The translations under genes and the position numbers were made by a program. Positions 43,801 through 62,960 of a DNA stretch of 64,000 nt are shown here, one piece after another. Numbering within the stretch: position 1 is the stretch's first letter; the number at the start of each line of letters is the position of its first letter. Under the pieces are notes generated by a model, which saw only the letters and a program-made list of their open reading frames with translations, was not told the origin of the DNA and did no database searches. This DNA is from Heliocidaris erythrogramma (lineage: Eukaryota; Echinodermata; Echinoidea; Camarodonta; Echinometridae), in contig CM046868.1 of assembly GCA_025617745.1 (NCBI GenBank), forward strand, positions 18,542,615-18,606,614, written 5' to 3'.

Positions 43801-46800
43801 TGATGCCAAAAAATAAATCATCTTAATCTTTTGGTGATGCTTGGAATGTGATAAAATATTAGGATGTTCAGATAGACCAAAAATAACATATTATTATTAT
43901 GTTTCTAGGGTGGCTGGCACAAAAATACCCAAACAGGTCTTTACTTCTTGATGTCCTGATGCCTGTATACTGTAATATAAAAAGCCTTTGATTATCCCCG
44001 GCTTTTGAGAAATATGAGGACATCCAAATTGTCAGAATATTGGTTTTTCATGAATCTCATAATCCATGCCAAAAAGTGGCTCATTTTAGAAAAAGAAATA
44101 CAGACTTCAGGAAGTAAGCTGCCAACCACAAACCTAGATCTACTGACTTTTGGTTAGGGTAAGGGTCTGAATGGATTAACCTACTTCTTTTTCTTCAGGA
44201 AATCGATTGACTATTATTAGCAATTTTATTAGAAACTTCATTATTATTTATTATATTATGAGAGTGCAGCACATTAGAAATGTGTTGTTGTTTTTTTATA
44301 GAGTTCAAAGTTTGTGTCTTTGGTTCGATTTAGATTTGACCATAAATTACATATCATCAGTTTTTGGCTTCTGAAGTTAGTAGACTTCCAAGTCATGAAT
44401 TCAGTTGTTAGAAGAAAAAAATGTAAGATACAGTTGTAAAACTGATTTTTTGAGAGAAGTGTGGGCTGTTAGAATGATCCTGTACATCTGCATGTCACAC
44501 ATATCTATACCCACTAACCAATCGTTAAAAGAAATATAATATAAAAAAATCACTGTTATGTACAATGCACAAAAAAGGATTTTTAATTTCATTGGAAAAT
44601 ATTTGAAAATACGTAATAGATCTAGGGTGTGTCTTGTATTTAAAACCCATACAATACATAAATTCAAGGACAAGGAATACATAAACACTCCCAATAAACC
44701 AATAATAACTGGTTATTTCCCCTTGTTAATCCAAAGAATATTGTGAGATATCCTTTGTGATTCTTTCTTGTAAATTCTTCATTTCCTTAATCCCCATATA
44801 TTGAGATGTATATCCTGTAATTATTCTATTTTTAACCCGTAGCAATAATGAATTTTCTAAAGGTCTGGGAAAATAAAATCCAAATCAAACTGCATTGTAC
44901 ATTAAATGAATCAGTGTGAATGAAAATTACAGAATGACAAAATAACCAACTTGTACACAAATATAGTGAATTTACTACATACATGTAATTTCAACCGAAA
45001 TTAACTCTGTTTTGCTGATCTAGAGACTATAGGGCAATCCAACCTTTAAAATTAGCTAAGTTTGTGAAAGCCGGAACATCAGAGAAACGCTTTTGTGAAA
45101 GTCAAAAAAATATGGACAAATAAAGTTTAAAAGCGGAGATCATTAAGTCTACAGGGATCTCAAATTGGCAGATTGGTCATTAGACTGGAGTATTTCGGAA
45201 TCTCCCATTTGCTTTACCATAAAATACGAATTTCCATTTATCTTTCAAGTAACCTTTTCCACAGGGCTTTACTTATTGTTTTTTCTTTATTCTTTTATAA
45301 AATGTCCTGTGACTGCTATTTACTGCAATAAATCATATATACCTACCTATTATGCCTGTAGTCTTGACTACGGGACCCCTTCGAGAATTTAACACACATG
45401 AGTCACAATATTGTGCGCACCCCCCGTAATCCTATTGTCCCCTTCGCCACTCACGCGCGTCAACACGCTACGGCCATCTTCCTCTTTCTTGCTCGCCCCC
45501 GACGAGTTAGGACGTATAGTCACAGCGCTCCTGAAATCAGGTCGTATAGTATCTTTTTGGTGCGCTTTTTCACATAGTTAAAGCACTTTTAGGTACCTAT
45601 ATTCGTTTAGATTATAGTACTTTGTGTTTTATTAGTCACTCTTGCCGATTGCAAGGGATTTTTTGATTCCCTTTCTTGGCATTTATTTTTCTCTTTCACG
45701 GTCAGCCCCACGTAGATATTTCCGTGTTTGCGGGTGTTTCCGTTTGTCACCGAGCCTTCGGGTTCGGTGTTTGTTCTTACGGTTTTTAGGCCGTGAAAAT
45801 TTCTTTAGTGCGTATCTCCCAAATAAACTTTAGTTTTATTTACTGCATTCAGTTGAAGTATTTTTTAATTTGAAAAGTATACTTTATTGTCTGTTTTATT
45901 GCAGTGGTATGAATTCGGAAGAAGAAGCAGCTGGGTCAAGGAGACCTGCTTCTTCCGAAGAGTTGTCTAGCAAGACGACTCGGCCTTCCAGAACTCCCCC
46001 GAGTACAGCGGTACGCGGGGGAGGGAGGAGGGCTAAAGGTAAGTTGCCTAGTGGTGTTCCCTTGCAGAGTTGGCGTTAACTGAATCGGGATTGTCAACTC
46101 CGAAGCCTGTGGTTTCGGGGTGGGTGGCGTCAGATTCTAGTGGTTTGGATATCTCGAATCCAATCCCCCGGTCGCTGAGACCAGAGGGGGGGGCTGTTGT
46201 TTCCCGTACGGTAGCGTTCACTCGCTCTGATCCGTTAGGGGAGACGCGCCCCACTACTGCAGGGCAACCCACGGGCTTAGTCCATGTTGGTCTGGGTTCT
46301 CAAACCCTAGCCCCCGGCAAACGCCATATGGGGGAACGAGTACTTTCTGGGCTGTCTCAGTTGCCAGCTGATGGGAATGCTCGAGCTAACAATTATGGAC
46401 GCTCTTCGGAGCAACAGGTGTTTTCACCTGAGTGCGTGACTACTAGTGCTCCCCTATTGCCGCTTTCGAGCGGTCCAATAGTGGGTTCACATGCCTTTAG
46501 TAGTCATCGGGCACATACCGAGTCATCTCGGTCTGCCCACGCACTGGGAGCTTTTAGCTCCCAACCCATGGCTACTGCATCTTCTTGCTTAGCCAATATG
46601 GGTGATTTGGGCGATTCTCTAGGCTTACGCCATGAGCGCTCCAATCCCTTTTTGGGAAGTGAACGTCCCTCCGCGGAGGGATCGGTTCGTGTTTCCGAAG
46701 TGGCTTCGGAGATCCGAATGAATCCGATTAAGCGTTCTAACAAAAGGGTTTCGGCTACGACTCTTGTCGAGCCAGCCAAGATAAAGGCCAAGAAGAAGGC

Positions 46801-49800
46801 AGAAAGTGGCAAGGCTTTGCCGGCCTCTTGCCCGTCTGGCCTGGCTAACCCAGCTAGCTCCTCTCAAGCTGACATGTTCAGCATGATGCGGGCTTTTGCT
46901 CAGAATCAGGGTTGGTCCTTTGTACCGGCTACTTCAACCCTGACTTCTGTCCCTATTCAGGGGTCTGACTTTGAGACTAATCAGCCTTTTGTGTTGGATT
47001 TGTCTTTGTCTGAGTCGGTTTCGCATGTGCCTCCTATTCCCGCGGCCCTTGGGGCGCCGCTGGGCGAGGAGACTTTCGTTGAACCATGCGGGGCTCTGCC
47101 TGCTGAGGCCTTTGTTAGCGTTCCTTTGTCTCTTTCCACTCGGGTGGAATCAGATTTGGAGCTGGCCTCTCAAGCTTCGTTTTTGAATCGCTTGGGCAGG
47201 CGGAGTCTCAATCGCTCGCCCTCTGTGGGGTGGAAGTGATTGCTTTGTTATCCAGATATCTCTCTGAATTTTAGTCAACCCGCGCGCAGGGTTCGACTTC
47301 GCGTTGGTTTAAGCAGCGGGATTTCTGCTGAGTCCTTTGTTGGCGTTCCTTTGCCGGGTCATCCCGGTCCGCCCTTGCTCTGGGCGCCTTGGCGTCCGGC
47401 CCATGGCTGTTGCATCTCCTTGCTCGGCCGATATGGGTAATTGGTGCGCGTCTTTGGGTTCAATACCCTCAGCGCACTTCTCCCATAAAGGGAGGTGAGC
47501 GTCCCTCAGTGGAGGGTTCGGTTCGTGTTCCCGAAGGGCTTCGGGGATCCGAACGAAACCGAATAAACGCTCTGAAAAGCGGGTTTCGACTTAGGCTCTT
47601 TTTGGGCCAATCAGAAGCCTAGGGAAGGGGCTAAAGGAGGCAAGGCTTTGCCTGCCTCTTGCCCATCGGGTTTAGCTAACCCTCCGGTCTCTCAAGCTGA
47701 GATGTTCAGTGTGAGATGGGCTTTGCCCAGACTCAGGGTTGGTCCCTTGTACCAGGATTCACATCCCCTGCTCTTGTCCCTTTTTTGGGTTGGACATCGA
47801 GACTAATTAGCCTTTTATGGTTTATTCTTCTTTGTCTGTGATGAGATCACATGAGCCTCCTAGTCTCGCAGCCTCGGGGCTCCGTCGGGTGAGGAGGCTT
47901 ATGGCGGTTCATGCGTGAATCCGACCGTTTCGGCCTTTGTTCGTGATTCTTTGTCACGATCATTTCAGGCGGATCCAGTTTTGGACGCGGCCTCTCAAGC
48001 TTCGGTCTCCGAATCGCTGGGGCAGGCAGAGCCTTAGTTGCTCTCCCTTTGTGGGGTAGAAGCGATTGCTTTGTTCTAAACTTTCCCTGACTTTTAGTCA
48101 ACCCGCGCGCAGGGTTCGACTTTGCTTGGGTTCAGGCAGCGGGCGGACGAGACGGATTCTTCATAGATCTGTCCGCCCCGCTCCCCGGAGGTGCTATAGG
48201 AACTCGGTCACCTCACAGGCTGTCCTTTTCCCTTTCTCCGACTTTTGTTATTCCCAAGCGCTCGGGAAAACTTCAGTACATTTTCGGATGGAGACTCTCG
48301 CCTCCATTCTCCCGTTGATCAAGAGGAAGGACTACGCGGTCTTGATAGTTTTCGAAGATGCGTATTTCCACTTTCCCGTTCATCGCGCTTTGCGCGATCT
48401 TCTGGGGCTTTTCTTCCTCTCAGAGACTTATCGTTTTTGCACTCTTCCCTTCGGGCTGTGCCCAGTCCCTCGGGTTCTTACTCAGGTTGTAGCCGTGCTG
48501 GCAGCCTCTCTGAGGCGATGCGGCCTTCGGCTATTTTTGCTACCTGGACGATTGGCTTCTCCTAGCGGAGTTGCGCGATTGTTTGTTGGACGAGACTAGT
48601 TTGCTCGTCAATCTTACTCAAGACTTAGGTTTCCTAATGATTTGGGAAAAGTCAGAGTTAGTTCCCACTCGCAGCCCAGTTTTTTCTGGGGGCGGTGTTA
48701 GACATAAGGAATCAGTTGGCTCGGCCCAGTCGAGACAGGATTCTCACCATTGTCTCTGCGGCTCGCAAGCTCTTGCTGGCCAGAAGAGTCTCGGCCAGAC
48801 AGTGGCTTCAGTTTCTAGGTTAACTAGTCGATGTTTTAGAGGACTGCCGGCTCCTCATGAGACCCTTTCAGAGACATCTCCTCAGGTTCTTCAAGCCGGG
48901 AAAAGACTCTCTTTTGGTCTGGATTCCAGTACCAGTATGGTTCAAGTCTCTTCTCTCTTGTTGGACGAGCGAGGTGTTTCTCGCGCGAGGCAGGTCCTTC
49001 TCTGCCCCTCTTCCGTCGATATCGGTTTCGACGGACGCCTCTCGGTTGGGGTGGGGAGGACACTGCAACGGCAGCACGGTTGCGGGGGATTGGTCTCATC
49101 TTGGGACTCTTCCTCATATCAATGTCCTGGAGTTTATGGCAGTTCTGTTGACCTTGCTCCATTTCAGAAGTCGACTTCTCAGTCGTTCGGTTCTGATTCT
49201 CACGGACAATGTTACTGTGGCGGCATATATCAATCGGCAGGGAGGCACTCGTACGGTTGCCCTGAATGCCCTAGCAGCTCAGCTGTGGAGGTGGTGTCGT
49301 CGCATGGCATTCACACCCGTGGCCTCTTTCATCCCCGGTCGGGAAAACCTCTTTGCGGATTTTCTGTCTCGGGGCAGGTATCTTCCATCGGAATGGACGC
49401 TCCATCCGGAGGTATTTTGCCGCATTCGCAGTTGTCTAGGTCCACTGGAAGTGGATCTATTTGCGTCGGTGTTAAATCACCAGCTGCCGAAGTATTGATC
49501 CCGTGTTCGCGATCAGGGAGCATGGGCTCTCGATGCTTTCTCCCTCAGCTGGGAGAACCTTCAGGGATTCACCTTTCCTCCCTTCCAACTGATTCCGCGT
49601 GTCTTGCGGAAAATCAGGGAAGATCGGGCGCGGGTGCTCGTAATAGCTCCCTTTTGGCCCAGGAGGAATTGGTTTCCAGAACTTATGAGCCTCCTAAGGG
49701 CTCAACCGTTCGTTCTCCCGTTAAGAGCGGATCTGGTGTTACAGCCCCTATCGGGGATTTTTCACCACAGTCCGGAGTCTCTTCATTTGACTGCTTGGCC

Positions 49801-52800
49801 CCTGTCAGGGAATCTGCAAGACAGTCGGGGGTCTCTCTGATAGAGCCGCGGACTTTTTAATGTCCAGTCGTAGGGTTTCTACTAGGGAAATTTACAATTC
49901 CCGTCTCTCTGTCTTTTTCCTTTGGTGCAAAGAGAGAAATCAAACCCCTTCTAAGGCTCCTATTGGTTCAATTGCGGATTTCTTAATCTCGTTATTTGAC
50001 AAAGGGAGATCTATTTCTACTATCCGAGGCTACCGTTCGGCGATCGGGGCCATTCATTCAGGTTTTTCGGATGGTTCGGGGATTTCCAATTCCCCGCTAC
50101 TAAGCGGTTTGATTCGTTCGTTCTTTCTGAAACGACCTTCGTTTTCTAAGTTAGTGCCGTCTTGGAGTCTGCCTAAGGTCCTGGAGGCCTTGGCGAAACC
50201 TCCTTTTGAACCGTTAGGTGAAGCTTCGCTTCATCATCTTACGGTTATGACGCTCTTTTTGGTAGCTATTGCCTCTGGGCAGAGGCGCAGTACTCTTCAT
50301 GCTCTCTGTCTTACTCCTGGTCATGTTCGCTGGGAGAGAAAAGGTGTTAGATTGATTCCTAGGGCTTCTTTCGTTGCCAAGAATCAGACAGCTACCTCCG
50401 GTCCTGTTGAGATTTTTCTTTGTCCGCTTTCTGACCTTTCTTCGGTGCGTGAGGACAAAGTTTGGTGTCCTGTAAGGGCTCTCAAATGGTATATTGATAA
50501 GACTAAGTCTTTTCGTAAGGATGATCAGTTGTTCTTGATCACTAGAGAGCCTTTTTCTCCTGCCTCTCTGGATTCCATCTCTAGATGGATCGTTGAAGCT
50601 TTTAGGGCCGCTGGCACAGAGGCTCTTTTATCCGACAGTAAGCCTCGTGCTCATGATACTCGTAGTGTCAGCACTTCTTGGGCTCTGTTTCAAGGTGTGG
50701 CGCTTGTTGTTATTTTGAAGGCTGCTTATTGGCGTTCGCCCAATTCCTTCATCTCTTGCTACCTTAGGGATGTTCCCGCAGGTGAAGCTTTGTTTGCGTC
50801 AGCCACCTTGAAGGCCGCTGTGTCTTCTTTGTAGTCTTTGTAATCCTATTCCCTTCTGCTCGAAACATGCCTCCCGGTCTTTGAGTTGGCGCTGGTCTGG
50901 CATAATAGGTAGGTATATATGATTTATTGCAGTAAATTTGTAAAATCAGCACTGATTTTCTTATTTACTATATAAATCTATATACCTACCTATGACCCTC
51001 CCTCCTTCCCCTCACCTTGCAAGCAACATGTTTCTACTTGAGATTGCTCGCAAAAGAGGAAGATGGCCGTAGCGTGTTGACGCGCGTGAGTGGCGAAGGG
51101 GACAATAGGATTACGGGGGGTGCGCACAATATTGTGACTCATGTGTGTTAAATTCTCGAAGGGGTCCCGTAGTCAAGACTACAGGCATAATAGGTAGGTA
51201 TATAGATTTATATAGTAAATAAGAAAATCAGTGCTGATTTTACAAGTCTGTTCCAAAATGTTTGAAGATGATTGCATTATGCAATATTTCTAAGTTGAAC
51301 CATTATCATAAACTGCAGTGCATCTAAAAAGTTTATAATATTGCACAAATACCTAAAATAATAGGTACCAAAGTGGCAAATCGTCAGTTCATAGAAATAC
51401 TTTATACATTGAATATGTTCAGAACAAAATGATTAACATGTGCATTTCTATAGGTAAAAATCATCAAAATTCACTTCCAAGAATGAGGTTTCTTTATTGA
51501 TTGAGGGCGTTATTTGTCATCATGCACCTCTGTCGTTTGACATACATGTGTTTTTAACTTAATTGGATTTTGAAATAATAGTGCTACTTTCCTGAAGAAG
51601 ATCCAGAATTGATTGTAATCATGACGTGAATAATATTTGTACGAGTTCCTGTCAATCACCTTAACCAAATTTGACAGTAATTGTTGAGAACATCATGGCT
51701 GGTAGAATATAGATAGTATATCACTCCTTGAAGTTCCTCCATGCCATCAGTGATTTAATGTGGTAATCTTTGAGTGTGCTATGACTACATATATTCTCAC
51801 ATGCCCGCAATTATATATCGCAAACACTTTCTTCCTAACTCCTGGCAATTTTCATTTTTACAAACAAACCTCAGACTTCTTGTCAGTTGTCATCACCATC
51901 ATACAATGGAAAGCAATATTTTGCCTGTTTGATGTTGTGAAAGTGTTACATTTTACGACTTCTTGGCTAGACTTTCTTTGTCTTCCCCGTGTCTGGAATT
52001 TCTTGCACTGATTCCTAAAATCTTTGTTCTTAGTTGTTAAAGGTACTAGTAATATTTGCAGTGAAATCCTTACCTGTATTAAAGCCTTCAGAGTCTTTCC
52101 ACATTTACAAAATCCGGGAAGTCAAAAAAGAGCCAAAATTTCTGTCAATGGTTTGCAATGCAAAAAAAAAACTGAACATAATATTTGACTTAAATGTAAC
52201 CCTGCAAATGATTTTTCCCCCTGTATATTACTCATTGCTTGTGCTTCCTTATAATCTGAAAATATATAACTTGAGTTTTGTTGCTTCTCAAACTGGCTTG
52301 TAGAGTAATCTGTGATAAATAGCGAATTTAAAAGAAGGATGCTGTCGTATTGGATCATGAGTATCGAGCACAGTAGCAACAAGGTAGGATTAAGCCAGCC
52401 AATACTTGTATCGATGATTGGCAGGAAGGGATTAGCATAATTGGTGTTTAAATCTTTTAATTCCTGAAGATATGTAGAGTTTGGTTCCTATCCAAAATGT
52501 CCGATCAGCACTCAATGTAAATTATAACATGGTTACACATTATATGTGGGTGTAGTTTCTTGATGTTTTCAGATGTACTTGTCAAATTTTGTTTTGTATC
52601 AAGATGGTAAGATGCCTGTTCCTGTTATGTTGTACAAGCAACCACTGTTTATGAAATGTTTTTGATTCTGGAAGATTTGTGATTATTCTTTTTGAAAGTG
52701 ATAAGTGTTTAACCATGGAACTGTCAACATTTGGTATCATATGTTAGGAAAAGCAACATTTATTTTGATCTGTTGCCAAAAAATAGCGATTAATTATACC

Positions 52801-55800: not shown

Positions 55801-58800
55801 TAATGAAACCGGCCCCCATCACAATTATTCTCAATTGTTCTTTCCCTATCTCACTACCCAATCCAGATTTCCATTGATAATATCTTATTTTCCTTTAAAT
55901 ACTTCATCAAGGTGCATGGCTTTTTATCTTGGTCGGCAGCTTTTCCCATTTGTAGAGAGTAATGAAAAATTGAAGAAGGAAATGGGAACAAAGCACAGGA
56001 GACATGCTCATTAATTTTATCCATCGATCAATCTTTGCCACTTTGTAATAATTTTCAGTTGCTCTCTGTTTCTTCCAAACTTTTATCTTCTTCTCATCTT
56101 TCCAAATGTTTCCAAATAATAATAATAACCCACTCCAAATTTTATTAATCGAAATGGAAATTCTTTTTGCCCAATTGATCGTGGGCCCGGCAGCCACTGT
56201 GCAGCGCCAGATCGACGTTGCTCTATCCTTTCAATTGTTGAACGCCAAACAAGGTAGCAGCAACTCCCATTTTTAACGTCTTTTGGTATGACGCGGCCGA
56301 GGTTCGAACCCACGACCTCCCGATTGTGAGGCGGACGCTCTACTGACTGAGCCAACACATCGGTATCTACCCATTAATGAAGAGGTCCCCACTGATATCT
56401 GCTTATTTCTCTCTGTATTTTACAAACCTACAAGAGTCTATCCAAGGAGTTATCACAGAACTGGAGTTACAGCAGAAGCGAGCTTCTTTGAACCGGGTTT
56501 GATGCCGCGCCATAAACTCAGCGGGTGTTCTTCAGTGATTTACTACAGCTGTTTACTTGGGTCTGGTGCCGAGGCTGGATCTGCGCATGCTCATCTTCAG
56601 CCGATCGAGTTAACTGACGGCATTTTAGCTTCTTGCTTTTTGGGAAAATCGCAAACGCAGAGTATAAACACAAGGATAATATCACTTTAGACAAGGAATT
56701 ACTGTTCTTGTCGGAAATCGATGAATTGGGAGTACAACTAGATGAATGGGAAATTGGATATAGTGGGGAGATAATTTTCTAACTCTATATAGATCTAGAT
56801 ATCTTTGAAAAGACAAGTAGACTACAGTACCTCCTGCATCGGTATAGTGTAGCTCTGCCGGGCTGGCTCTTTCAGCGCGCGGAGCTGCCCCGCCAGTCTT
56901 GCCGGTGTGGTGGTGTGGCTGAGCTGCGTGGGGGAAGTCCGTGTGAACGCTACCATTTTGTTACCCTATTCTCTGATCTCTATTTTGTTGCTTAACCAAG
57001 GAGTTATAAATGCCCCCCCCCCCAAAAAAAAAAAAAGAAAGGAATCTGTAATTTGTCATGCTGGGGGTAGGGGAAAATCTGGCAAGCAGGAGCATCTCTA
57101 AGTTAAGTAAGTTAATTTGGAATTTCGACATTCTGTTTTTTCCTTGTCGGCAAATGTAAAACTCTGAAGACCCTTTTTAAAATATATATTTATTATATAT
57201 TTTCATTTTCCTTCATGGGGCATTTTCAGTTACCTTGCCAGTGAATTTGCTCCAGCATCCTCATTCAGAATATTCTACTATAGTGATGCCACTGAATAAA
57301 AACTCAGAATTACACTATATTTATGATTTTTGTTTATTGTCTGCATATTCTCTGAATCTTAATTTTGAAACAGCTACGGGTCTACAAAGAGTTGGAACAA
57401 GAAACACTAACTAGGGATAAATTTTATTTCGGTTAACTTACTCCCCTAGATTAATCCAGCAAATCCACCTCAACGTACCATGCCATATTGACGTTATGAA
57501 ATTGGCATTATTATTGACTTTGTGAGTCAGTCAGCGTTTATACTCGCAGTCACAGTCGCAGAGACAGACTCTCACTGCCACTGTCTCAAACACGTGGGAG
57601 ACATCTACTTTGTCATGATTCATTTCAATAATTGATAAAAAGAAGTAAGGTGCAACAGGGAAATAGTCAAAATTTATTAGTAAAACCATAGAAATTAGTA
57701 CGTAAAAGACAACATACACAGAAAAGCACGAGTGGGACTGAATGAATCCCACTTGGCAGACGACAAAAGAATTCGCAGACGAGAGTCGACTCCGAGAGAA
57801 CGACCATTGCATTCATGTATTTTCTATTATGATGACACGCGTTGACACTCTAATGACAAGGTGGGTCTTGATCAAAAAGATATGCTCTTTCCGAAGAGAT
57901 ATGTTTTGAATGTTGCAGAATTTGGGAACATATTATTAGATAAATATGAAAATGATATCTAAAATATTGATATTTATAGAAAACATGTCATAACTCATCC
58001 ATTTCTGGACATATTTTGACAAAATAAGCATCTGTGAATTTAGAATTTTGCGGAGCTCAAGATACAACCTACTGCGCATATAATGAGAGCAACAAACTCT
58101 ACTGCGCAAGGGTGAACTGATTGTTAGTTCACATTCACTGAAAAATTTATTTTTTAGCGAGGGAATTGTCAAGATCGAGCAATAAGAGCGGAGCGGTACT
58201 TTGATTTCGGGTCTTATCTCTTGCGTTGCGTAACACTTTTGGTCGTAAAAAATTGTGTTGTGACTCCAGTTCTGTGATAACTCCTTAGTCTATCTAAGAA
58301 GTCACTGAAGGCATACCACCTATCCTATCTGTAAATAATCTTTTCCACCTTGAGAAACAATTTTGAATTGTTTCACTGTTTCTTCCAAACTTGTATCTCC
58401 TCATCTGCCTATTAATGAAGAGATCCGGATTGATATCTGCTTATTTCTCTCTATATATTACGAACCTGCAAAAGTCTATCTCTGACTCCAGGCATTCCTG
58501 TTTGCAGCTGAGAAAAAAAAAAATCATGTTGAAACTCATGATGAGGCTCAGGAGATACATTGATTAACCCTATCTGGTCCCTGTTTCATATAACTTGATA
58601 TTAATAACAAGTTGCAATAACTGTTATAAGCTACTGAAATTCGTGCATCTGATTGGCTGAAAGCAATTTTGTCTTAGAAATGTGGCAGTTGATACTGATA
58701 ACAAGTTTGATGAAACAGGGCCCTGATAATGAAATACTTCTCTCCTATCATTTCTTATTCATCTACCCACTAATAAAAGAGATTTCCCCTGATACGTTCT

Positions 58801-61800: not shown

Positions 61801-62960
61801 TGAACTTCAGTAAAACATTTGCAATTTGAAGGTAGAGGTTTGCATGGTGGTACTGATAATGTTGAGAAGGGCTTACCCACTCACTCCTGATGACGTACAG
61901 TCAACCTGCCCGAAACATTGAGTCTTCTCCACTCTCGGCCTTCTCATCTGGTTTACAGTCCTTTTCAGGACTTCACACTTCAAGAAAGATCACTTCTTTC
62001 TACATTCTCTGAATTTCTATCTCGCCTTTCCATTTCTTCTCCTCTCAACTTTTCTCCACTTTTTCTTCTCACTCAACAGTCCTTTTCAGGACTAACCACA
62101 TGGTGAACCGTAAGCCCTCTCAACATTACATTTGCAATGTATTAAACAATTTTTTCCTAAACTTGTTGTCACCATAATTCAAGTACCTTTTGTGATTTTA
62201 TTATATTTTTATTTTTTGTAGTTTGCTGGTACAGTCTCAGGTGCCAAGGGAGATTTGGATAACTCATGGGAAGATGTGACAGTTTACACACAATATGTGT
62301 AAGTATACCTGCAGTTGTGAATGAGAATTGCCTCCATTTGACAGTATGTGCCCCAAATCGGCATGCTACATGTATGTGTGTTAGGTTAGCTAAGAACAAA
62401 ATAAAAGAATTATGAAAATATTTTGATCAGACTTCCGTTCAGATTTTTTTTAAAAGGGACTCATATATTGAAGAGTAAGAAAATAGGAAAATATTTGAAA
62501 CTTGATGTTATAGGAAATTGAATGTTTTAAAGGTAGCTTTAAAGATAATGCCATTGCGTATAAAAATGCAAATACGTTTTAGTTTCAAAATCAGTTGTAT
62601 TATAACCTGAGGAATAAACTTGAAGTTACCATTTAATGTAGGTACATCAGTTGACTTACATTTCTTTCTTGGAATTGGATTCCTAACATTCATATGCAAA
62701 TGTAGCAGTCAGGTCCCGGAACTGAGATTTCAGATTGAGGAAATTTAAAAATAGTTCACCCCATTAACATCACCTATATGGATTCTGTTGGAATTCTTTT
62801 ATTTTTACAGATACTATGCATTGATAGGTCTGACGTGTACAATTTTGCTGATTGTCATGTTCAACCTGATCGGTTTCACTATGGGTACCTTCTCCTACAA
62901 GAACGTCCATCCCATGGAGCGATCAAGGATGTCGAATGCGGGTGGCAATGTCCTTATGGC
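2413..62960 (+). CDS. Prominin (CD133-like) gene, 5' part, 11 exons
   Basis: Prominins are pentaspan cholesterol-binding glycoproteins of plasma-membrane protrusions (microvilli, cilia, photoreceptor discs). The coding pieces are 2413-2671, 16084-16166, 17365-17570, 31962-32082, 33234-33300, 42057-42152, 42493-42677, 53231-53302, 61057-61197, 62222-62298 and 62811-62960. All junctions are GT-AG, the phases agree at every join, and the sum is 1457 nt (485 codons plus 2 nt) with no stop. Visible parts are a signal peptide, TM1 (about 117-143), the CCRCCDRCGG turn (145-154), TM2 (about 169-188), a first extracellular loop (about 190-435) with several N-glycosylation sequons, TM3 (about 437-461), and a short cytoplasmic loop entering TM4. 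The Cys-rich turn between TM1 and TM2, the motif before QIKY, and LNDIP are prominin hallmarks. The 3' half is outside the window. Vertebrate orthology (PROM1, 2 or 3) cannot be decided from sequence alone, so no symbol is given. Confidence 0.92.
3482..4498. mobile_element. Non-autonomous inverted-repeat element rich in GCGTTT/AAACGC
   Basis: The ends form an imperfect inverted repeat of about 45 bp: the left end carries TGCATTTATGCTCACG and CCAGAATGAG, matched by CTCATTCTGCC and AAGCATAAATGCA at the right. TA occurs just outside both ends, consistent with a TA target. Inside, near both ends, GCGTTT/AAACGC recurs in both orientations. No transposase reading frame is visible. It is probably a MITE-like element about 1 kb long, locally richer in CpG than its surroundings. 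Confidence 0.65.
4700..4740 (-). repeat. LINE/SINE-like 3' tail, minus strand
   Basis: Read on the minus strand, this ends in AATCTGAATAAAATCAAATC, the kind of AATAAA plus ATCAA repeat that terminates many non-LTR elements. The element body (lower coordinates on this strand orientation would be 4740 onward) is not recognisable by eye. Confidence 0.3.
4967..4982. repeat. G homopolymer (about 16 nt)
   Basis: An uninterrupted G run followed by GGAGGAGG. Similar runs occur near 9319-9334, 37194-37207 and 38815-38835 (G) and near 43497-43513 and 53059-53083 (C). Lengths may be unreliable because homopolymers are prone to sequencing error. Confidence 0.8.
5670..5970 (+). repeat. Dispersed repeat family R1, copy 1
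   Basis: Contains GGGTACCAATTAAC, TTAGGGATTCCATAT, a GGAACCGAACTC/GAGTTGGGTTC inverted core, TTTTTATGTTATCCTTT and TTAACCCATAG. The same order of blocks appears at 16326-16545, and in the opposite orientation at about 53580-53840. No coding potential is seen. It is probably a MITE family. Confidence 0.55.
6030..6550. mobile_element. Foldback element F1 (TTAAAGGG-type ends)
   Basis: Two arms of about 150 bp (about 6071-6210 and 6380-6520) are imperfect inverted copies. The left arm reads AAAAAGTTATGAACTTTTGA and the right arm TCAAAAATTCATAACTTTCT, and each contains CAAATTGGCAA or its complement. The left end AAGGGAAAGTCCACCCTGGTAT matches the terminus of the short element at 16213-16326. It is a non-coding MITE or foldback. 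Confidence 0.6.
7042..7177 (+). mobile_element. MITE family M, copy 1 (CCAAT core)
   Basis: A 136-bp inverted-repeat element: GGGAGCATTTCATCAAGTG at the left is matched by CACTTGATGATGAAATGCTCCC at the right. The centre GACAAATTTGCTCTCAGCCAATCAGATGCAAG is shared, in spirit and almost base for base, with copies at 10.5, 12.0 and 58.6 kb. Confidence 0.75.
7872..8512. mobile_element. Foldback element F2
   Basis: The ends TTAAATGGAAATCCAACC and GGTTGGATTTTCCTTTAA are inverted copies. The inner arms pair as GAAAGTTATGAATTTTTGAAAG with CTTTCAAAAATTGATAACTTTC. It is related to F1 (6.03 kb) by both end sequence and arm sequence. A second, smaller inverted pair around CAAATTGGCC/CAAATTGCCAATTTG lies inside. 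No open frame of note. Confidence 0.65.
9319..9334. repeat. G homopolymer
   Basis: A 16-nt G run after TTTTTTG. It marks no recognised gene feature. Confidence 0.8.
10484..10636 (+). mobile_element. MITE family M, copy 2
   Basis: Starts GGGCCCTGTTTCAGAAGACTTGTTATC and ends with GATAACAAG-like inverted sequence and GGGCCCTT. The centre contains GACAAATTTGCTCTCAGCCA and ATCAGATTCAAGG, the same core as the copy at 7042. About 150 bp, non-coding. Confidence 0.75.
11700..11790 (+). repeat. Non-LTR-like 3' tail with (AATCA)n
   Basis: AAAATAATTAAAATCAAATC is followed by three more ATCAA-type units. The preceding region is T-rich with no recognised frame. It is consistent with a truncated LINE 3' end in + orientation. 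Confidence 0.4.
11955..12091 (+). mobile_element. MITE family M, copy 3
   Basis: GCCCCTGTTTCATAAAACTTATTATCAATAACAACTGCC at the left and TGTTATTGTAACTTGTCATAGATATC at the right flank the core GACAAAGTTGCTCTCAGCCA/ATCAGATGCAAG. The right terminus is more decayed than in the other copies. Confidence 0.7.
13612..13698. repeat. ACTAGTA-type minisatellite inside the relic
   Basis: Repeated blocks of about 36 bp built from AGTACTAGCACTAGTAGGAA. On the minus strand they read as Pro-Thr-Ser-rich codons (PTSAST repeats). The array lies between the Crypton-like fragment and its foldback end, and may be a linker or a decayed minisatellite. Confidence 0.6.
13673..13966 (-). pseudogene. Crypton-like (DUF3504-type) N-terminal fragment
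   Basis: The minus-strand frame starts at an ATG (13966) and runs 97 codons. Its first 50 residues contain LTEEELDDLL, KDSNSTKRAVK and FGFSKLECFAKL. These resemble the N-terminal part of Crypton tyrosine-recombinase relatives (KIAA1958/DUF3504-type proteins), where a TEEELD...KDSKNTKR block precedes the core-binding region. A good donor (AAG|GTAAGT on the minus strand, near 13803) follows PPSRK. Further on, KVDGTDYTKNT resembles the second conserved block. The catalytic domain is absent. Family assignment is from memory of motifs only. Confidence 0.45.
16084..16166 (+). CDS. Prominin coding exon 2: pre-TM1 segment
   Basis: The acceptor TTCCTCAG ends at 16083. The phase-1 join makes Asp87, followed by 27 codons (YIRFVLENVYNET...EMWK). 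It contains an NET sequon at residue 98 and corresponds to the conserved region just outside TM1. The donor AAG|GTGAGG leaves phase 0. Confidence 0.9.
16213..16326. mobile_element. Short MITE (F family), 114 bp
   Basis: TTAAAGGGCAAGTCCTCCCTGATATCAAG at the left pairs with TACCAGGGTGTACTTCCCCTTTTAAAG at the right. The ends match foldback F1 at 6030. The element lies 46 bp downstream of the exon 2 donor. Confidence 0.7.
16326..16545 (+). repeat. Dispersed repeat family R1, copy 2
   Basis: Same block order as 5670-5970: TATTAGGGTTCCATG, ATGAGCATCGATAG, GGAACCAAAGTAGGACTTGGGTTC, TTTATGTTATCTTATTTTTT, ATCAACCCATAGGA and a closing TTGGTACCC. The GGTACC ends of copy 1 and copy 2 are comparable. Confidence 0.6.
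16920..17222. mobile_element. MITE family T, copy 1 (ends TACTGTATACGCCA)
   Basis: AATACTGTATACGCCAT at the left and ATATGGTGTATACAGTA at the right are inverted. The interior has TTCGCGGTTGGTTGAATTCGTGATC, ACAAACAGCAGTGATGATG, TGGCAATATTTTAGC and CGCGAAATTCACAAAAATAA in the same order as the copy at 34737-35148. Confidence 0.7.
17365..17570 (+). CDS. Prominin coding exon 3: TM1, Cys-rich turn, start of TM2
   Basis: The acceptor TTTCTTTCAG ends at 17364, phase 0. Residues 115-182 comprise a strongly hydrophobic TM1 (MGLIVGIIVCVLFGVLYFII), PITGFIFS, then CCRCCDRCGG (145-154), the most diagnostic prominin motif, a basic KRVQRESKRMGCKR linker, and the first part of TM2. The donor CTG|GTAAAT leaves phase 2 (TG), completed to Cys by the next exon. 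Confidence 0.95.
19298..19322. repeat. (GA)n microsatellite
   Basis: About twelve AG dinucleotides. Other GA runs are at 21655-21688, 26927-26953 and 27070-27110, and a large compound tract is at 37786-38071. Confidence 0.85.
20250..20340. repeat. Interstitial telomere-type repeat (CCCTAA)n
   Basis: About 91 bp of CCTAAC units, mostly exact, with CTTAAC variants, decaying into CCCAAT units at the right. (TTAGGG)n is the telomere repeat of echinoderms and vertebrates, so this is an interstitial copy inside the gene, more likely inserted during break repair than marking a fusion. Confidence 0.9.
21701..22033. repeat. Foldback minisatellite of ATTCATAAGGACCGTT units
   Basis: About six tandem copies of a 16-bp unit (TTATTCATAAGGACCG) are followed by inverted copies (GAATAGCGGTCCTT), then a second head-to-tail plus inverted set around CATAACGCGTG. 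The outer ends AGGGGTAACCTCGCTATTCAT and ATGAATAGCGAGCGGACCCCTT are inverted. The whole could fold into two large hairpins. No coding potential. Confidence 0.8.
22790..23465. mobile_element. Decayed foldback element
   Basis: An imperfect inverted pair of about 55 bp: 22830-22885 (CGTCATACGAGGGATCGATC and CTTAAGCAGACGACGTCC) against 23338-23392 (GGACATCGTCTGCTTAGACA and TCTTGTGTCGTCAC). The interior is non-coding. The pair is a probable terminal repeat of an old DNA element, but target duplications are not evident. Confidence 0.45.
24290..24375 (+). repeat. SINE-like tail
   Basis: Ends with GCGCTATATAAGAATTGTTA followed by TTATTATTATTGTTAT. This GCGCTATATAA tail is shared with the complete tRNA-SINE at 54889-55147. 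The head is missing. Confidence 0.5.
25763..25875 (+). mobile_element. tRNA-derived SINE head fragment
   Basis: GAGGTGTCATAGTCCAGTGGTTTAA (A-box-like) and GGTCGATAGTTGGATCTCGG (decayed B box) are followed by TTCCTTGAGCAAGGCATCTGATCTACATTG, the same body block (GGCAAGACACTAATCTACATTTG) as the SINE at 54.9 kb. Confidence 0.55.
26200..26244. repeat. C8-A10-(CA)n microsatellite
   Basis: A C run, an A run and about 13 CA dinucleotides in succession. Confidence 0.85.
26360..27170 (+). repeat. Diverged tandem array, about 155-bp unit, six copies
   Basis: A marker block similar to ATATCCTCAGCCTCGGAGAA followed by CAGTAGCAGCCCTTCC recurs near 26363, 26516, 26677, 26835, 27000 and 27126. The copies share AATTTCCATTGCATATCCTTG-type sequence and have diverged. 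Units 4 and 5 have gained long (GA)n runs at the same internal position, after CAGTTTCTGCTGTC-type sequence. Confidence 0.7.
28100..28133 (+). promoter_or_regulatory. Core promoter (TATA box plus initiator) inside the TGGCGC element
   Basis: TATAAAAG at 28100-28107 is followed about 31 nt downstream by TTTCTCACACAAC, an initiator-like pyrimidine-CA context (CA near 28132). This spacing is textbook for RNA polymerase II. The surrounding segment (28100-28220) is the only part of the element lacking TGGCGC repeats. Confidence 0.5.
28160..28348 (+). CDS. Short basic reading frame behind the TATA box (possible captured exon)
   Basis: The ATG (AAGATGC, purine at -3) lies about 28 nt after the inferred start site. 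The first 20 residues are Lys/Gly-rich (MPPKGKKGSRKGKKDKPDGR), unlike the translation of the TGGCGC repeats that follows. The repeat-free stretch ends near GGCCG|GTATTT, which could be a weak splice donor. This looks like a 5' exon with its promoter carried by the element. The downstream part of the 62-codon frame is probably not meaningful protein. I do not recognise the parent gene. Confidence 0.35.
   Translation: MPPKGKKGSRKGKKDKPDGRYLYSRQVAPSGGKFKPVWRPLAQTNHQVPQSSCLLARMAPTG
31555..31800 (+). repeat. Retroelement-derived fragment
   Basis: Contains GAAGCTTTTTGAAAACATC, GAGGTAGTTAATTCCACAGTCTGGGAGCAGCAG and GCTCTGTCATCAAGTGTGTC, ending in (ATT)n-like AT-rich sequence. The GTTCCA...GGGAGCAGCAG string is familiar from interspersed repeats of marine invertebrates. 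The exact family is unknown to me. Confidence 0.4.
31962..32082 (+). CDS. Prominin coding exon 4: end of TM2, start of extracellular loop 1
   Basis: The acceptor CCTACTTGCAG ends at 31961. The phase-2 join completes Cys183, then AGMAFTNVSNEFLKTS and 24 further residues to VNE (residue 223). An NVS sequon is at residue 190. The helical, acidic stretch FKETADSTLGDLESFFNAVNE begins the ectodomain helix. Donor GAG|GTAAAT, phase 0. Confidence 0.9.
32083..33233. other. Prominin intron 4 (1.15 kb)
   Basis: A GT-AG intron. It contains a GGACC/GACCGG-rich stretch at 32158-32190 (tandem GGACC units) and a fragment at about 32520-32720 with AAAGCCAGAAACTTTTGCG, reminiscent of a repeat near 60545. Nothing coding. 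Confidence 0.7.
33234..33300 (+). CDS. Prominin coding exon 5: QIKY segment
   Basis: 67 nt, residues 224-245 plus one base. It begins QIKYMVETEYGYVDT. The QIKY tetrapeptide at this point after the VNE/TPE turn is a clear match to vertebrate prominins. Acceptor CTTTACCCACAG and donor AAG|GTAAGT. The phase-1 exit joins the next exon as Glu246. Confidence 0.9.
33840..34385. mobile_element. Short relative of the 13-kb foldback relic
   Basis: The head is a foldback: GTTAAGTCACAATGGGATAATGAAC pairs with GTTCATTATCTGTCTCATTGTGACTTAAC, followed by TATCACTAATACTCGAGCCACAAACC, compared with CACACTAATGCACGACCTCACAACC at 13225. The other end TATGACCAATGAGAATG...AACCCATTTTATAAT matches TTTGACCAATCAGGATG...AACCCGTTTTATAAT at 14283-14325. 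It lacks the Crypton-like frame. Confidence 0.55.
34737..35148. mobile_element. MITE family T, copy 2
   Basis: AATACTGTACATGTATATGCCATA at the left and TATATGGCGAATACAGTATT at the right are inverted. Internal blocks are TTCGCGAATAGGACTAGAC, ACAAACAGCAATGATGACG, TTAGCAATATTTTAGCGTG and CGCGAAAATAAAACCCTCGCAAAATAT, in the same order as at 16920-17222. Confidence 0.7.
36005..36035 (-). repeat. tRNA A-box-like SINE fragment
   Basis: On the minus strand this reads TAGCTCAGTAGGTAGAGCAC, a canonical tRNA D-arm/A-box sequence, but no B box or clover-leaf follows. Probably a truncated SINE head. Confidence 0.45.
37786..38071. repeat. Polypurine tract, GA/GGGA-rich, about 285 bp
   Basis: Almost uninterrupted purines on the + strand: long GAGAGA runs, a G10 run, and GGGAGAGAGAG blocks with partial mirror symmetry. 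Such tracts are prone to triplex (H-DNA) formation and replication slippage. Confidence 0.85.
39478..39700 (+). mobile_element. SINE with decayed tRNA-like head
   Basis: TGCCATTGTGGTATAGAGGTCCTGGGTTGGATCC (A/B-box-like) is followed by GACAAGGTGTTTTGCCTGCATTTG and CAACCCAGGTGTATTGAGTGGGTTCCTGGCAATG. That body matches the block in the SINE at 54.9 kb (CACCCAGGTGTAAATGGGTACCTG). Confidence 0.6.
39979..40681. mobile_element. Inverted-repeat element packed with CCCGCAG/CTGCGGG motifs
   Basis: The ends AAGGTGCTGTCACATCTTTC and GGGAAGATGTGACAGCGCCTT are inverted for about 30 bp. The interior repeats CCCGCAG, CGCAGGT, CACGCAG and GTTGCCCG in both halves. There is no coding frame. It is GC-rich against an AT-rich intron. 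Architecturally it resembles the elements at 3.48 and 27.65 kb. Confidence 0.7.
42057..42152 (+). CDS. Prominin coding exon 6: extracellular loop 1
   Basis: The acceptor TTTCTTCAG ends at 42056. Residues 246-277 (EIGNEIGEPVEEYMLDEGGL...TNISS), with an NIS sequon at 274. Acidic and helical in character. Donor CCA|GTAAGT, phase 1. Confidence 0.88.
42153..42492. other. Prominin intron 6 (340 bp)
   Basis: The shortest intron of the gene in this window, with a strong donor (GTAAGT) and acceptor TTTGTTTGTAG. A competing AG at the CTTTCAG just downstream (42499) would also keep a phase-compatible read only if two residues are lost, so tandem acceptor use is possible. Confidence 0.75.
42493..42677 (+). 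CDS. Prominin coding exon 7: extracellular coiled segment
   Basis: Residues 278-339. It contains heptad-like KMEDALNEIESLRSDLMNQS followed by ILESELTQVKDNLDAIS, matching the EIK...LENMNSTLKSL-type helix of prominins. A CDNC pair (Cys321 and Cys324) follows, with NQS (298) and NYT (336) sequons. Donor AAG|GTAAGT, phase 0. Confidence 0.9.
45336..45487 (+). repeat. DIRS left inverted terminal repeat
   Basis: 152 bp, essentially identical to the complement of 51053-51204. Contains CCTACCTATTATGCCTGTAG, GGACCCCTTCGAGAATTTAAC and ACGCGCGTCAACACGCTACGG. The near-identity of the repeats indicates a young insertion or repair from a template. Confidence 0.92.
45909..47239 (+). CDS. DIRS gag-like protein (two frames, possible 29-nt excision)
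   Basis: An ATG at 45909 opens a Glu/Ser-rich frame (MNSEEEAAGSRRPASSEEL) running to the basic GGGRRAK at about 46038. The long gag frame (46050-47239) is in another frame without its own early ATG. Between them 46039-46067 begins GTAAGT and ends TTGCAG. Removing these 29 nt joins the frames exactly (AKELALTESG), but this is shorter than known metazoan introns, so a frameshift is equally possible. The main frame is Ser/Pro-rich with a basic KRSNKRVS...KIKAKKKAES stretch near its middle. No zinc knuckle is seen, as is usual in DIRS gag. Confidence 0.65.
47323..48143 (+). pseudogene. Degenerate tandem duplicate of the 3' half of gag
   Basis: This segment repeats about 46500-47322 in the same order: CCCATGGCT, GAACGTCCCTC, TTCGGTTCGTGTTCC, TTTGCC...CTCTTGCCC, CTCAAGCTTCG, and TTTTAGTCAACCCGCGCGCAGGGTTCGACTT. 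The offset is about 820-840 bp. It has many substitutions and indels and no long frame. The first copy keeps gag open, the second does not. Confidence 0.75.
48144..49840 (+). pseudogene. DIRS reverse transcriptase/RNase H/methyltransferase-like, disrupted
   Basis: RT is recognisable as KRKDYAVLIVFEDAYFHFPV (catalytic Asp codon 48357-48359) and FCTLPFGLCPVPRVLT in frame 3, then YLDDWLLLAEL at 48541 in frame 1, then the downstream RT and RNase H in frame 2. That makes two frameshifts (between about 48500 and 48541, and near 48685). Frame 2 also has stops at 48821 (TAA) and 49496 (TGA). RNase H shows STDASRLGWGGH, INVLEFMAVL and LTDNVTVAAYINRQGGT. The tail SWENLQGFTFPPFQLIPRVL and APFWPRRNWFPEL is the DAM-like region typical of DIRS1 elements. 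Confidence 0.88.
49860..50834 (+). CDS. DIRS tyrosine recombinase (intact)
   Basis: A 324-codon open frame. The N-terminal SAM-like core-binding half has YNSRLSVFFLWC and STIRGYRSAIGAIHSGF. The catalytic half has the first Arg in ASGQRRSTLHAL (Arg142 or 143), the HxxR motif AHDTRS (His265, Arg268), Trp291 in AAYWRSPNSF, and the Tyr nucleophile in SCYLRD (Tyr301). These match the R-H-R-H/W-Y set of DIRS recombinases. It would resolve the circular cDNA into the host DNA without target duplication. The ATG is immediately downstream of the RT/RNase H unit, and the frame ends 65 bp before the internal complementary region. It is the only clearly intact protein of the element. Confidence 0.93.
   Translation: MSSRRVSTREIYNSRLSVFFLWCKERNQTPSKAPIGSIADFLISLFDKGRSISTIRGYRSAIGAIHSGFSDGSGISNSPLLSGLIRSFFLKRPSFSKLVPSWSLPKVLEALAKPPFEPLGEASLHHLTVMTLFLVAIASGQRRSTLHALCLTPGHVRWERKGVRLIPRASFVAKNQTATSGPVEIFLCPLSDLSSVREDKVWCPVRALKWYIDKTKSFRKDDQLFLITREPFSPASLDSISRWIVEAFRAAGTEALLSDSKPRAHDTRSVSTSWALFQGVALVVILKAAYWRSPNSFISCYLRDVPAGEALFASATLKAAVSSL
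50899..50993. repeat. DIRS internal complementary region (circle-junction template)
   Basis: 50899-50937 is the complement of the left outer end (45318-45356) and 50938-50993 is the complement of the right outer end (51190-51245), directly abutted. In DIRS1 this region is thought to template the joining of the two ends into a circular intermediate. It lies just after the recombinase stop codon. Confidence 0.9.
51053..51204 (-). repeat. DIRS right inverted terminal repeat
   Basis: The inverted partner of 45336-45487. It is followed by a right-end-specific extension to 51245 (AGATTTATATAGTAAATAAG and AAAATCAGTGCTGATTTTAC) that is found again, complemented, only in the internal complementary region. 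Confidence 0.92.
53231..53302 (+). CDS. Prominin coding exon 8: LPSVD segment
   Basis: 72 nt, 24 codons, phase 0 at both ends: residues 340-363, LPSVDTQIAGVEEANMLTVN and ITEE. LPSVD corresponds to the LPPVD of vertebrate prominins. NIT sequon at 359. Acceptor TTTTTGACAG, donor GAG|GTATGT. A symmetric exon of this size could be skipped without a frameshift. Confidence 0.9.
53580..53840 (-). repeat. Dispersed repeat family R1, copy 3 (inverted)
   Basis: Reads as the complement of the 5.7-kb copy, including GCGGAACCAAACTCCAAGTTCGGTTGC, an AAAGCTCATATTTCAAATATAGTATAG block (compared with ATAATATTTGAAATATGAGC at 16384), and a TTGGGAG/GGTAG end. Confidence 0.5.
54480..55200 (+). repeat. Tandem repeat, about 171-bp unit, three copies
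   Basis: TTGTGGTTTCAG recurs at 54497, 54669 and 54840, each followed by an ATATT/GTATTCTC stretch, then CCCTAGATACCC and CCATCCCTCCTTTCCCCTCTCC. Copy 3 is interrupted by the SINE at 54889-55147 and resumes with TGGATGGTCCTTATATACCCCATCAC. Confidence 0.7.
54889..55147 (+). mobile_element. tRNA-derived SINE, complete
   Basis: The head GTGTTGTGGTCTAGTGGATAAGTCAC (A box) and GGGTTCGAATCCCACCGCGG (B box, perfect GGTTCGAATCC) give a tRNA-like 5' end. The body has GGCAAGACACTAATCTACATTTG, CACCCAGGTGTAAATGGGTACCTG and GGGTAATAATGTCTAAGC, and the tail has GAGCGCTATATAAGTGGCC. It would be transcribed by RNA polymerase III. It is inserted inside unit 3 of the 171-bp repeat. Confidence 0.85.
56113..56364 (-). 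mobile_element. tRNA-derived SINE (different family), minus strand
   Basis: On the minus strand the head reads GTTGGCTCAGTCAGTAGAGC, then CCGCCTCACAATCGGGAGGTC and GTGGGTTCGAACCTCGGCC: A box, an anticodon-loop-like CTCACAA (CAC, Val-like) and a perfect B box. The body is unrelated to the 54.9-kb SINE and ends in a TTATTATTATT tail. It interrupts the 240-bp array. Confidence 0.8.
56443..58286. mobile_element. hAT-like non-autonomous DNA transposon (1844 bp)
   Basis: Terminal inverted repeats of about 28 bp (AAGGAGTTATCACAGAACTGGAGT, one mismatch after) with 8-bp direct repeats AGTCTATC at 56435-56442 and 58287-58294, the hAT signature. The longest frames are short and unconvincing, and no transposase or BED motif is seen. 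A partial internal terminus (AACCAAGGAGTTATAAA near 56994) suggests a nested or rearranged copy. It interrupts the 240-bp array, so it is younger than the array. Confidence 0.82.
58577..58724 (-). mobile_element. MITE family M, copy 4 (inverted)
   Basis: GGTCCCTGTTTCATATAACTTGATATTAATAACAAG at the left and GATAACAAGTTTGATGAAACAGGGCCC at the right are inverted. The core reads GCATCTGATTGGCTGAAAGC, the complement of the ATTGG/CCAAT core in the other three copies. The best-preserved ends of the family are here. Confidence 0.8.
61057..61197 (+). CDS. Prominin coding exon 9: LNDIP segment
   Basis: 141 nt, 47 codons, phase 0 at both ends: residues 364-410. It begins INAVLNDIPRQITVMTETDV, where LNDIP is a precise prominin match, then EELDKTEQEVKSSFDEINKT helical sequence with an NKT sequon at 405. 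Acceptor TTTTTCACAG, donor GAT|GTGAGA. Symmetric, so skippable in frame. Confidence 0.92.
61883..61923 (+). ncRNA. Hammerhead-like core (CTGATGA...GAAAC), unproven
   Basis: CTGATGA at 61887-61893 and GAAAC at 61912-61916 are the conserved core strings of hammerhead ribozymes, flanked by complementary ACTC (61883-61886) and GAGT (61920-61923). The 18-nt stem II region pairs only weakly (CAG/CTG), and no stem III hairpin is visible, so an active fold is doubtful. Similar cores are known from Penelope-like and retrozyme elements. Confidence 0.3.
61957..61989 (+). terminator. Histone-type 3' stem-loop with CAAGAAAGA downstream element
   Basis: AGTCCT-TTTC-AGGACT (61957-61972) is a perfect 6-bp stem with a 4-nt TTTC loop. 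It keeps the G-C second pair, the pyrimidine run and the TTTC loop of metazoan replication-dependent histone mRNAs. Eight bases later comes CAAGAAAGA (61981-61989), the U7-pairing element of sea urchin histone genes. No histone coding sequence is upstream. It could be a relic of a histone-like transcript or part of a mobile element that uses this processing route. Confidence 0.5.
62078..62099 (+). terminator. Second histone-type stem-loop
   Basis: An identical AGTCCTTTTCAGGACT hairpin 121 bp downstream, preceded by AAC and followed by AACCACA, close to the usual ACCA flank. No CAAGAAAGA follows. Together with the first copy it suggests a duplicated 3' end. Confidence 0.45.
62222..62298 (+). 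CDS. Prominin coding exon 10: end of extracellular loop 1
   Basis: 77 nt, residues 411-435 plus GT. FAGTVSGAKGDLDNSWEDVT then VYTQY leads into TM3. Of two overlapping donors, GTGT and GTAAGT, the second (exon end 62298) is stronger and gives the phase-2 exit that matches the next exon. Confidence 0.88.
62299..62810. other. Prominin intron 10 (512 bp)
   Basis: A simple GT-AG intron with donor GTAAGT and acceptor TATTTTTACAG. AT-rich. No repeats recognised. Confidence 0.8.
62811..62960 (+). CDS. Prominin coding exon 11: TM3, cytoplasmic loop, start of TM4
   Basis: 150 nt, residues 436-485 plus GC. TM3 is YYALIGLTCTILLIVMFNLI (about 437-456) followed by GFTMGTF. The loop YKNVHPMERSRMSNAGGNVLM contains the SNAGGN string that corresponds to the SNTGGV of vertebrate prominins at the TM4 entrance. 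Donor GC|GTAAGT, phase 2. The gene continues to the right of the window. Confidence 0.92.

Follow-up and report, generated by a model that had tools for sequence, protein, structure and literature searches.

Paired histone-like hairpins in the tail of a probable Penelope-like retrotransposon insertion in Heliocidaris erythrogramma

The locus

The window, the stretch of DNA analysed here, comprises 64,000 nucleotides of the sea urchin Heliocidaris erythrogramma (contig CM046868.1, positions 18,542,615 to 18,606,614, forward strand). Towards its right end, upstream of a frame resembling prominin, lie two identical hairpins, SL1 and SL2, that recall the 3' ends of replication-dependent histone mRNAs, the first of them followed by a block of purines. 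The feature that carries both hairpins is read here, with a probability of roughly 0.9, as a Penelope-like element (PLE), a retrotransposon, inserted as a short, 5'-truncated copy in the same orientation as a prominin-like gene.

An earlier note, made from the letters of the window alone, had described the hairpins as histone-type 3' processing signals inside a prominin intron, 121 bp apart and with the purine block 8 nt after the first. These letters and positions were verified: exact copies of AGTCCTTTTCAGGACT occur at 61957-61972 and 62078-62093, both on the plus strand and with starts 121 bp apart, and the block CAAGAAAGA was located 8 nt past the stem of the first. The note had listed neither the inverted repeats found around them, at 61857-61876 and 62110-62128, nor the 11-bp repeat on either side of the whole. 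The window copy of the element spans 61826-62127, is flanked by an 11-bp target-site duplication and contains the following features:

61815..61825, no strand, left target-site duplication ACATTTGCAAT, same letters as 62128-62138
61826..61876, minus strand, left arm, an inverted piece of the family's 3' tail running towards end point 2 (inverted match to family-tail query 232-277)
61877..62127, plus strand, right arm, probably the last ~250 bp of a 5'-truncated PLE, stopping at 3' end point 1
61887..61924, plus strand, hammerhead-like stretch CTGATGA ... CCGAAACATTGAGTC, with two helix mismatches in the window copy
61950..61956, plus strand, GGTTTAC, predicted 5' strand of a long-range stem around both hairpins (pairing with GTAAACC in the fold predicted for the majority sequence)
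61957..61972, plus strand, hairpin SL1, AGTCCTTTTCAGGACT, with 2 mismatches to the majority in 320 letters of the 20 other aligned copies
61981..61989, plus strand, purine block CAAGAAAGA, resembling the sea-urchin histone downstream element
62078..62093, plus strand, hairpin SL2, AGTCCTTTTCAGGACT, Rfam Histone3 score 20.1 bits (cut-off 34)
62096..62116, plus strand, CCACATGGTGAACCGTAAGCC, predicted short CAC/GTG hairpin together with the 3' side of the long-range stem, adjoining the 3' end points
62128..62138, no strand, right target-site duplication ACATTTGCAAT, same letters as 61815-61825

The sea-urchin histone motif with which the purine block was compared was taken from the earlier note. 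At up to two mismatches the hairpin occurs at 2 sites in the 64 kb, against a mean of 0.07 in 100 shuffled sequences, and the 9-mer CAAGAAAGA by itself is close to chance expectation (5 occurrences in the window; shuffle mean 1.25, with at least 5 in 3 of 100 shuffles). Throughout the source assembly (1.06 Gb in 26 contigs) exact hairpins number 2,512 (1,272 + 1,240) and those of a reversed control 0 + 0, so that the count is far above chance. A literature search for the exact hairpin letters matched no paper.

A dispersed family with two 3' end points

The stretch around the hairpins is repetitive. A first look returned 1,925 candidates, and the 40 scored among them gave 53 matches, of which the 39 best besides the window are 91-94% identical. 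The main alignment comprises the window and 20 copies chosen by their similarity to it (n = 21), and its majority sequence is 92.4% identical to the right arm of the window copy. Altogether 71 loci were examined, these 20 and a further 51 taken from the first 100 listed hairpin positions, on a single contig; all of the 51 belong to one repeat superfamily, with locus L044 as a diverged variant. A mobile element had been one of the alternatives in the earlier note, which had named copies devoid of hairpin and downstream element as evidence to the contrary. The genome search bore this alternative out: the stretch is dispersed in many copies, and the hairpins and purine block are retained in other copies.

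The family unit starts a few bases 5' of CTGATGA (61887 in the window) and ends at one of two points that lie roughly 30-40 nt apart: 9 of the 21 alignments stop at query 245-248 (…ACGTTA) and 12 at 277-284 (…TCAGTACCACCATGCAAACCTCTACCTTCAAAGATCA). Both are represented in the window, where the right arm runs to the first and the inverted left arm towards the second, the letters of the left arm (61826-61876) being those found after end point 1 in other copies. An inverted, head-to-head left arm was detected by script in 10 of the 21 (window, L012, L013, L014, L015, L017, L020, L022, L023 and L028); between copies these arms differ in length, or none is found. Four of the ten (window, L012, L013 and L020) have flanks sharing 11-13 bp, and shared flanks were also seen by eye in L009 (12 bp) and L024 (10 bp). 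In several longer copies, tandem units of ~150 bp precede the tail.

One locus has a more complex arrangement. In L085 (C1:7458000-7458600) three units of hairpin plus GAAAGA lie within 600 bp, with a gap of 4 nt and one hairpin having an altered base; two units run in the same direction and one is inverted, giving a long hairpin that was scored by several microRNA-precursor models, all below cut-off.

Relation to Penelope-like elements

Longer relatives connect the tail with a protein. GIY-YIG domains (PF01541, cut-off 22.6) were recognised in frames of L053 (30.3 bits) and L052 (28.3 bits). The L053 frame stops ~430 bp short of a tail unit with 96% identity to the family majority, and that of L052 continues into a tail fragment; L030, a shorter piece, gives a weak GIY-YIG match of 15 bits. 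No such frame is present in the window copy, which is truncated. In L052 the GIY-YIG frame stays open through CTGATGA into the tail, and the C-terminus of the protein may overlap the RNA element.

The assignment to the PLEs is based on the dispersal of the family, the GIY-YIG frame before the same tail, the target-site repeat, the inverted arms and the two 3' end points. PLEs are characterised, in the available parts of the literature, by a GIY-YIG domain, inverted arms set head to head, short duplications and, optionally, a tail of 30-40 bp (PMC11167929, PMC3846280). PAc, a PLE of Anolis carolinensis, is described there as cutting and extending both strands and as starting at two internal RNA sites, which accounts for its optional 30-40 bp tail (PMC11167929), and the PLEs of rotifers as having inverted pseudo-long terminal repeats (pLTRs), target-site duplications of 8-10 bp and a 31-bp tail (PMC3846280). 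As far as these accounts extend, the sea-urchin family shares with members of the Penelope/Poseidon group (PAc, and Pen2 and Pen3 of A. vaga) the GIY-YIG domain, the head-to-head arms, the short target-site duplication, the optional tail of ~30-40 bp and, perhaps, a hammerhead-like motif near the tail. It differs from them in carrying, after the hammerhead-like motif and ahead of the 3' end points, two identical AGUCCUUUUCAGGACU hairpins and a GAAAGA block; the accessible portions of the PAc and A. vaga Pen2/Pen3 descriptions make no mention of such hairpins (PMC11167929, PMC3846280).

A mechanism of the same kind would explain the window copy. The endonuclease-reverse transcriptase of the element would nick both strands of the target, and copying would begin within the element RNA, at each of the two end points, leaving a 3' tail that faces outwards at either end of the insertion. 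Close to these start sites the RNA would be structured by the hammerhead-like helix, the GGUUUAC/GUAAACC stem and the AGUCCUUUUCAGGACU hairpins, parts that the element's own reverse transcriptase would most likely bind and position. On this account the feature is an ordinary PLE insertion with an unusual paired-hairpin tail.

Structure and conservation of the tail

For the family majority sequence, the predicted fold has a GGUUUAC/GUAAACC stem closing around SL1, SL2 and the CAC/GTG hairpin; at the first end point, UGAUGACG is paired with CGUUAUCA. The possible partner of GGTTTAC in the window copy is GTAAGCC (62110-62116), with one G-U pair. Before these hairpins lies a stretch with what we take to be the core letters of a hammerhead, a ribozyme reportedly found in PLEs; its helix, CGGACAG/CTGTCCG, is perfect in the family majority.

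Both structured parts vary less than their surroundings. Mismatches to the majority in the 20 copies amount to 5/640 in SL1 and SL2 and 5/580 in the hammerhead-like part, compared with 92/3,340 in the rest (Fisher p = 0.0018 and 0.005), values made optimistic by the relatedness of the copies and by their selection for similarity to the window. In subfamily E (L039) SL1 has become AGTTCTTTTAAGAACT, a change on both sides of the stem, and the helix after CTGATGA is differently lettered yet still paired. L072 has otherwise the same SL1 as L039 and retains the pairing as AGTTCTTTTAAGAGCT, with one G-U. Because the hairpins are less variable than the rest and one pair has changed on both sides, they are probably a structural part of the template RNA near the start sites. 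In the main family an open frame from the ATG of CTGATGA passes through SL1 and CAAGAAAGA; a coding role for this part was rejected, as subfamilies B and E shift or stop the frame (by eye) and keep the hairpin and GAAAGA.

Besides the optimism of the Fisher values, several observations weigh against this interpretation of the element and its tail. All family results come from a single genome, and the loci read, which appear truncated at the 5' end, showed no frame for a reverse transcriptase. In the remaining six copies where the script detected a left arm, the flanks share at best 4-8 bp, which may be due to chance. The window copy, which is diverged, is predicted to fold differently, the arms of SL1 pairing with those of SL2 instead of forming two separate hairpins, and subfamily B (L037 and L048) has no SL2 by eye. 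The purine block alone is not significantly conserved (2/180 mismatches, Fisher p = 0.24). Compared with the consensus that we assume for hammerheads, the hammerhead-like part has one extra base beside helix II, and the Rfam hammerhead models gave no match in the window (E <= 10), in the 20 loci or in eight further loci (E <= 3), for which reason formal membership among the hammerhead ribozymes was dropped. As to the hairpins, we infer from their position only that recognition by the element's own reverse transcriptase is their most likely role, a proposal that seems somewhat better than an even bet.

Resemblance to histone 3' ends and other explanations

With the 3' end of a replication-dependent histone mRNA (RF00032 Histone3 plus the downstream element) the tail has in common a 6-bp stem, a UUUC loop, a G-C second pair and a purine-rich block downstream. 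It differs in its first stem pair, which is A-U and not the histone-type G-C, in the spacing of the block, which varies, in having two hairpins per unit, in a score below the model's cut-off and in its location in a retrotransposon. Two adenines directly 5' of the stem are missing at both hairpins: SL1 is preceded by UUUAC and followed by U, SL2 preceded by CUCAAC and followed by A.

The 71 loci hold 101 exact hairpins, which a script placed in SL1 context (57) or SL2 context (39); of the 5 remaining, four are SL1 or SL2 by eye and one belongs to the diverged L044. GAAAGA follows 50 of the 57 SL1-context hairpins, at 12 nt (28), 14 nt (18), 4 nt (3) or 18 nt (1) from the stem. Five of the other seven have an altered block, in L012 the SL2 sequence follows, and L038 has an internal deletion. 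In none of the 57 does the element end between hairpin and purine block. With the Histone3 model, SL2 of the window reached 20.1 bits (E = 0.0093 in 801 bases), SL1 of the window gave no match at E <= 10, and six matches of 16.7-24.7 bits were found in five of the eight further loci; none exceeded the cut-off of 34 in the window or the 20 loci. Such hairpin scores carry little weight, as SL1 also gave an Rfam match of 21.4 bits (cut-off 80) to Atu_C4, a bacterial RNA that is unrelated. A search for U7 small nuclear RNA (snRNA) gave no match and is uninformative, since its control was detected in 0 of 14 genomes.

Had a retroelement adopted the histone 3'-end pathway, as the earlier note proposed, SLBP would act on SL1 and U7 would pair with CAAGAAAGA or CACGAAAGA, with cleavage between them. 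The UUUC loop and G-C second pair, as in histone mRNA, the frequency of GAAAGA after SL1, the seven sub-threshold Histone3 matches (one in the window, six elsewhere) and the adenine directly after SL2 all favour such a pathway. The low scores oppose it, as do the A-U first pair, the unfixed distance of GAAAGA and its absence in 7 of 57 cases. According to the available part of one study, SLBP binds with wild-type affinity only when the stem has a pair of adenines on its 5' side and a single adenine on its 3' side (PMC10388802), and the adenines directly 5' are missing here. The family 3' end points lie ~155 and ~190 nt past SL1, and the RNAs that were copied therefore pass the supposed cleavage site. 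This origin of the tail is accordingly not supported, and use of the tail by SLBP and U7 is unlikely; as an explanation of the whole feature we consider it very improbable. The likeness, in the UUUC loop and CAAGAAAGA, is most likely convergent or accidental. Only a slim chance is likewise given to a PLE lineage with a histone-type stem-loop and U7-like block that uses SLBP or U7 transiently. If true, this could, for example, tie the element RNA to S phase or give a fraction of the transcripts a non-polyadenylated 3' end, the copied templates being the uncleaved ones. Among the papers listed by literature searches on mobile elements with histone stem-loops, none was on the subject by title and abstract, and among the 25 listed of 220 matches no paper combined a Penelope term with an SLBP or U7 term. 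The other origin that had been suggested, a lost histone pseudogene or remnant of a replication-dependent histone gene, would account for a histone-like hairpin with a downstream purine block, but it is contradicted by the great number of dispersed copies, the two hairpins per unit, the GIY-YIG frame that precedes the tail in relatives and the Penelope-type ends, and its probability is close to nil.

Two further kinds of mobile element deserve consideration. The 20-bp inverted ends at 61857-61876 and 62110-62128, with one gap and a TA beside each, had initially been read as the terminal inverted repeats and TA duplication of a cut-and-paste miniature inverted-repeat transposable element (MITE). 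That reading was dropped on the longer tail and the variable arms of other copies: the inverted arm, which is the family's longer tail, reaches 31 bp further out than the right arm, and left arms elsewhere are of very different length or none is found. With a second 3' end point and an 11-bp repeat outside the arms in addition, a MITE is extremely unlikely. A non-autonomous hammerhead "retrozyme", spreading as a small circular RNA and borrowing the Penelope machinery, is a doubtful candidate to which we also give very little weight. The hammerhead-like core letters, the many short copies, the ~150-bp tandem units before the tail in longer copies and the direct repetition of part of the tail in L085 agree with it. 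Animal retrozymes, as described in the accessible text of PMC7229834, are likewise short dispersed non-coding units with such a core; here, in contrast, no hammerhead is recognised by Rfam, and in some longer copies part of a GIY-YIG frame stands in line with the tail.

Genomic setting and other repeats of the window

Downstream of the probable PLE insertion, a frame at ~62815-62961 matches Pfam Prominin (1.2e-06, 27.4 bits), under the family cut-off of 34.3. Of three other peptides tested nearby, a pair lying upstream of the element and one directly downstream, none matched prominin. The setting in a prominin intron given in the earlier note is thus plausible; the element lies on the same strand as that gene.

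Several other repeats occur in the same 64 kb. A CCTAAC array at 20252-20322 (11.8 copies, 93% matches) is a TTAGGG-type telomere repeat within the contig. Inverted copies at 45317-45487 and 51053-51221, 97.7% identical over 171 bp, may together with a foldback structure at 50899-51245 represent a recently active element with inverted ends. Adjacent direct repeats of ~800 bp (46518-47320 and 47354-48143) are 74% identical. On the minus strand at 56289-56361 an Rfam tRNA match of 34 bits (cut-off 29) lies among dispersed repeats and is perhaps the head of a tRNA-derived short interspersed element (SINE); the sequence at 56365-56442 resembles that at 58403-58480 (86%).

Significance

A puzzling intronic "histone signal" is in this way resolved as a probable PLE insertion, and a hairpin with a purine block is, by itself, a poor test for targets of SLBP and U7. 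Both ends of the insertion agree with what was reported in vitro for one PLE, a mechanism that acts on both strands and starts at two sites. In the available portion of that work the recognised RNA region of PAc was inferred from truncations of one element (PMC11167929). The present large family, with its paired hairpins and a stem changed on both sides, offers material to define the RNA recognised by a Penelope reverse transcriptase.

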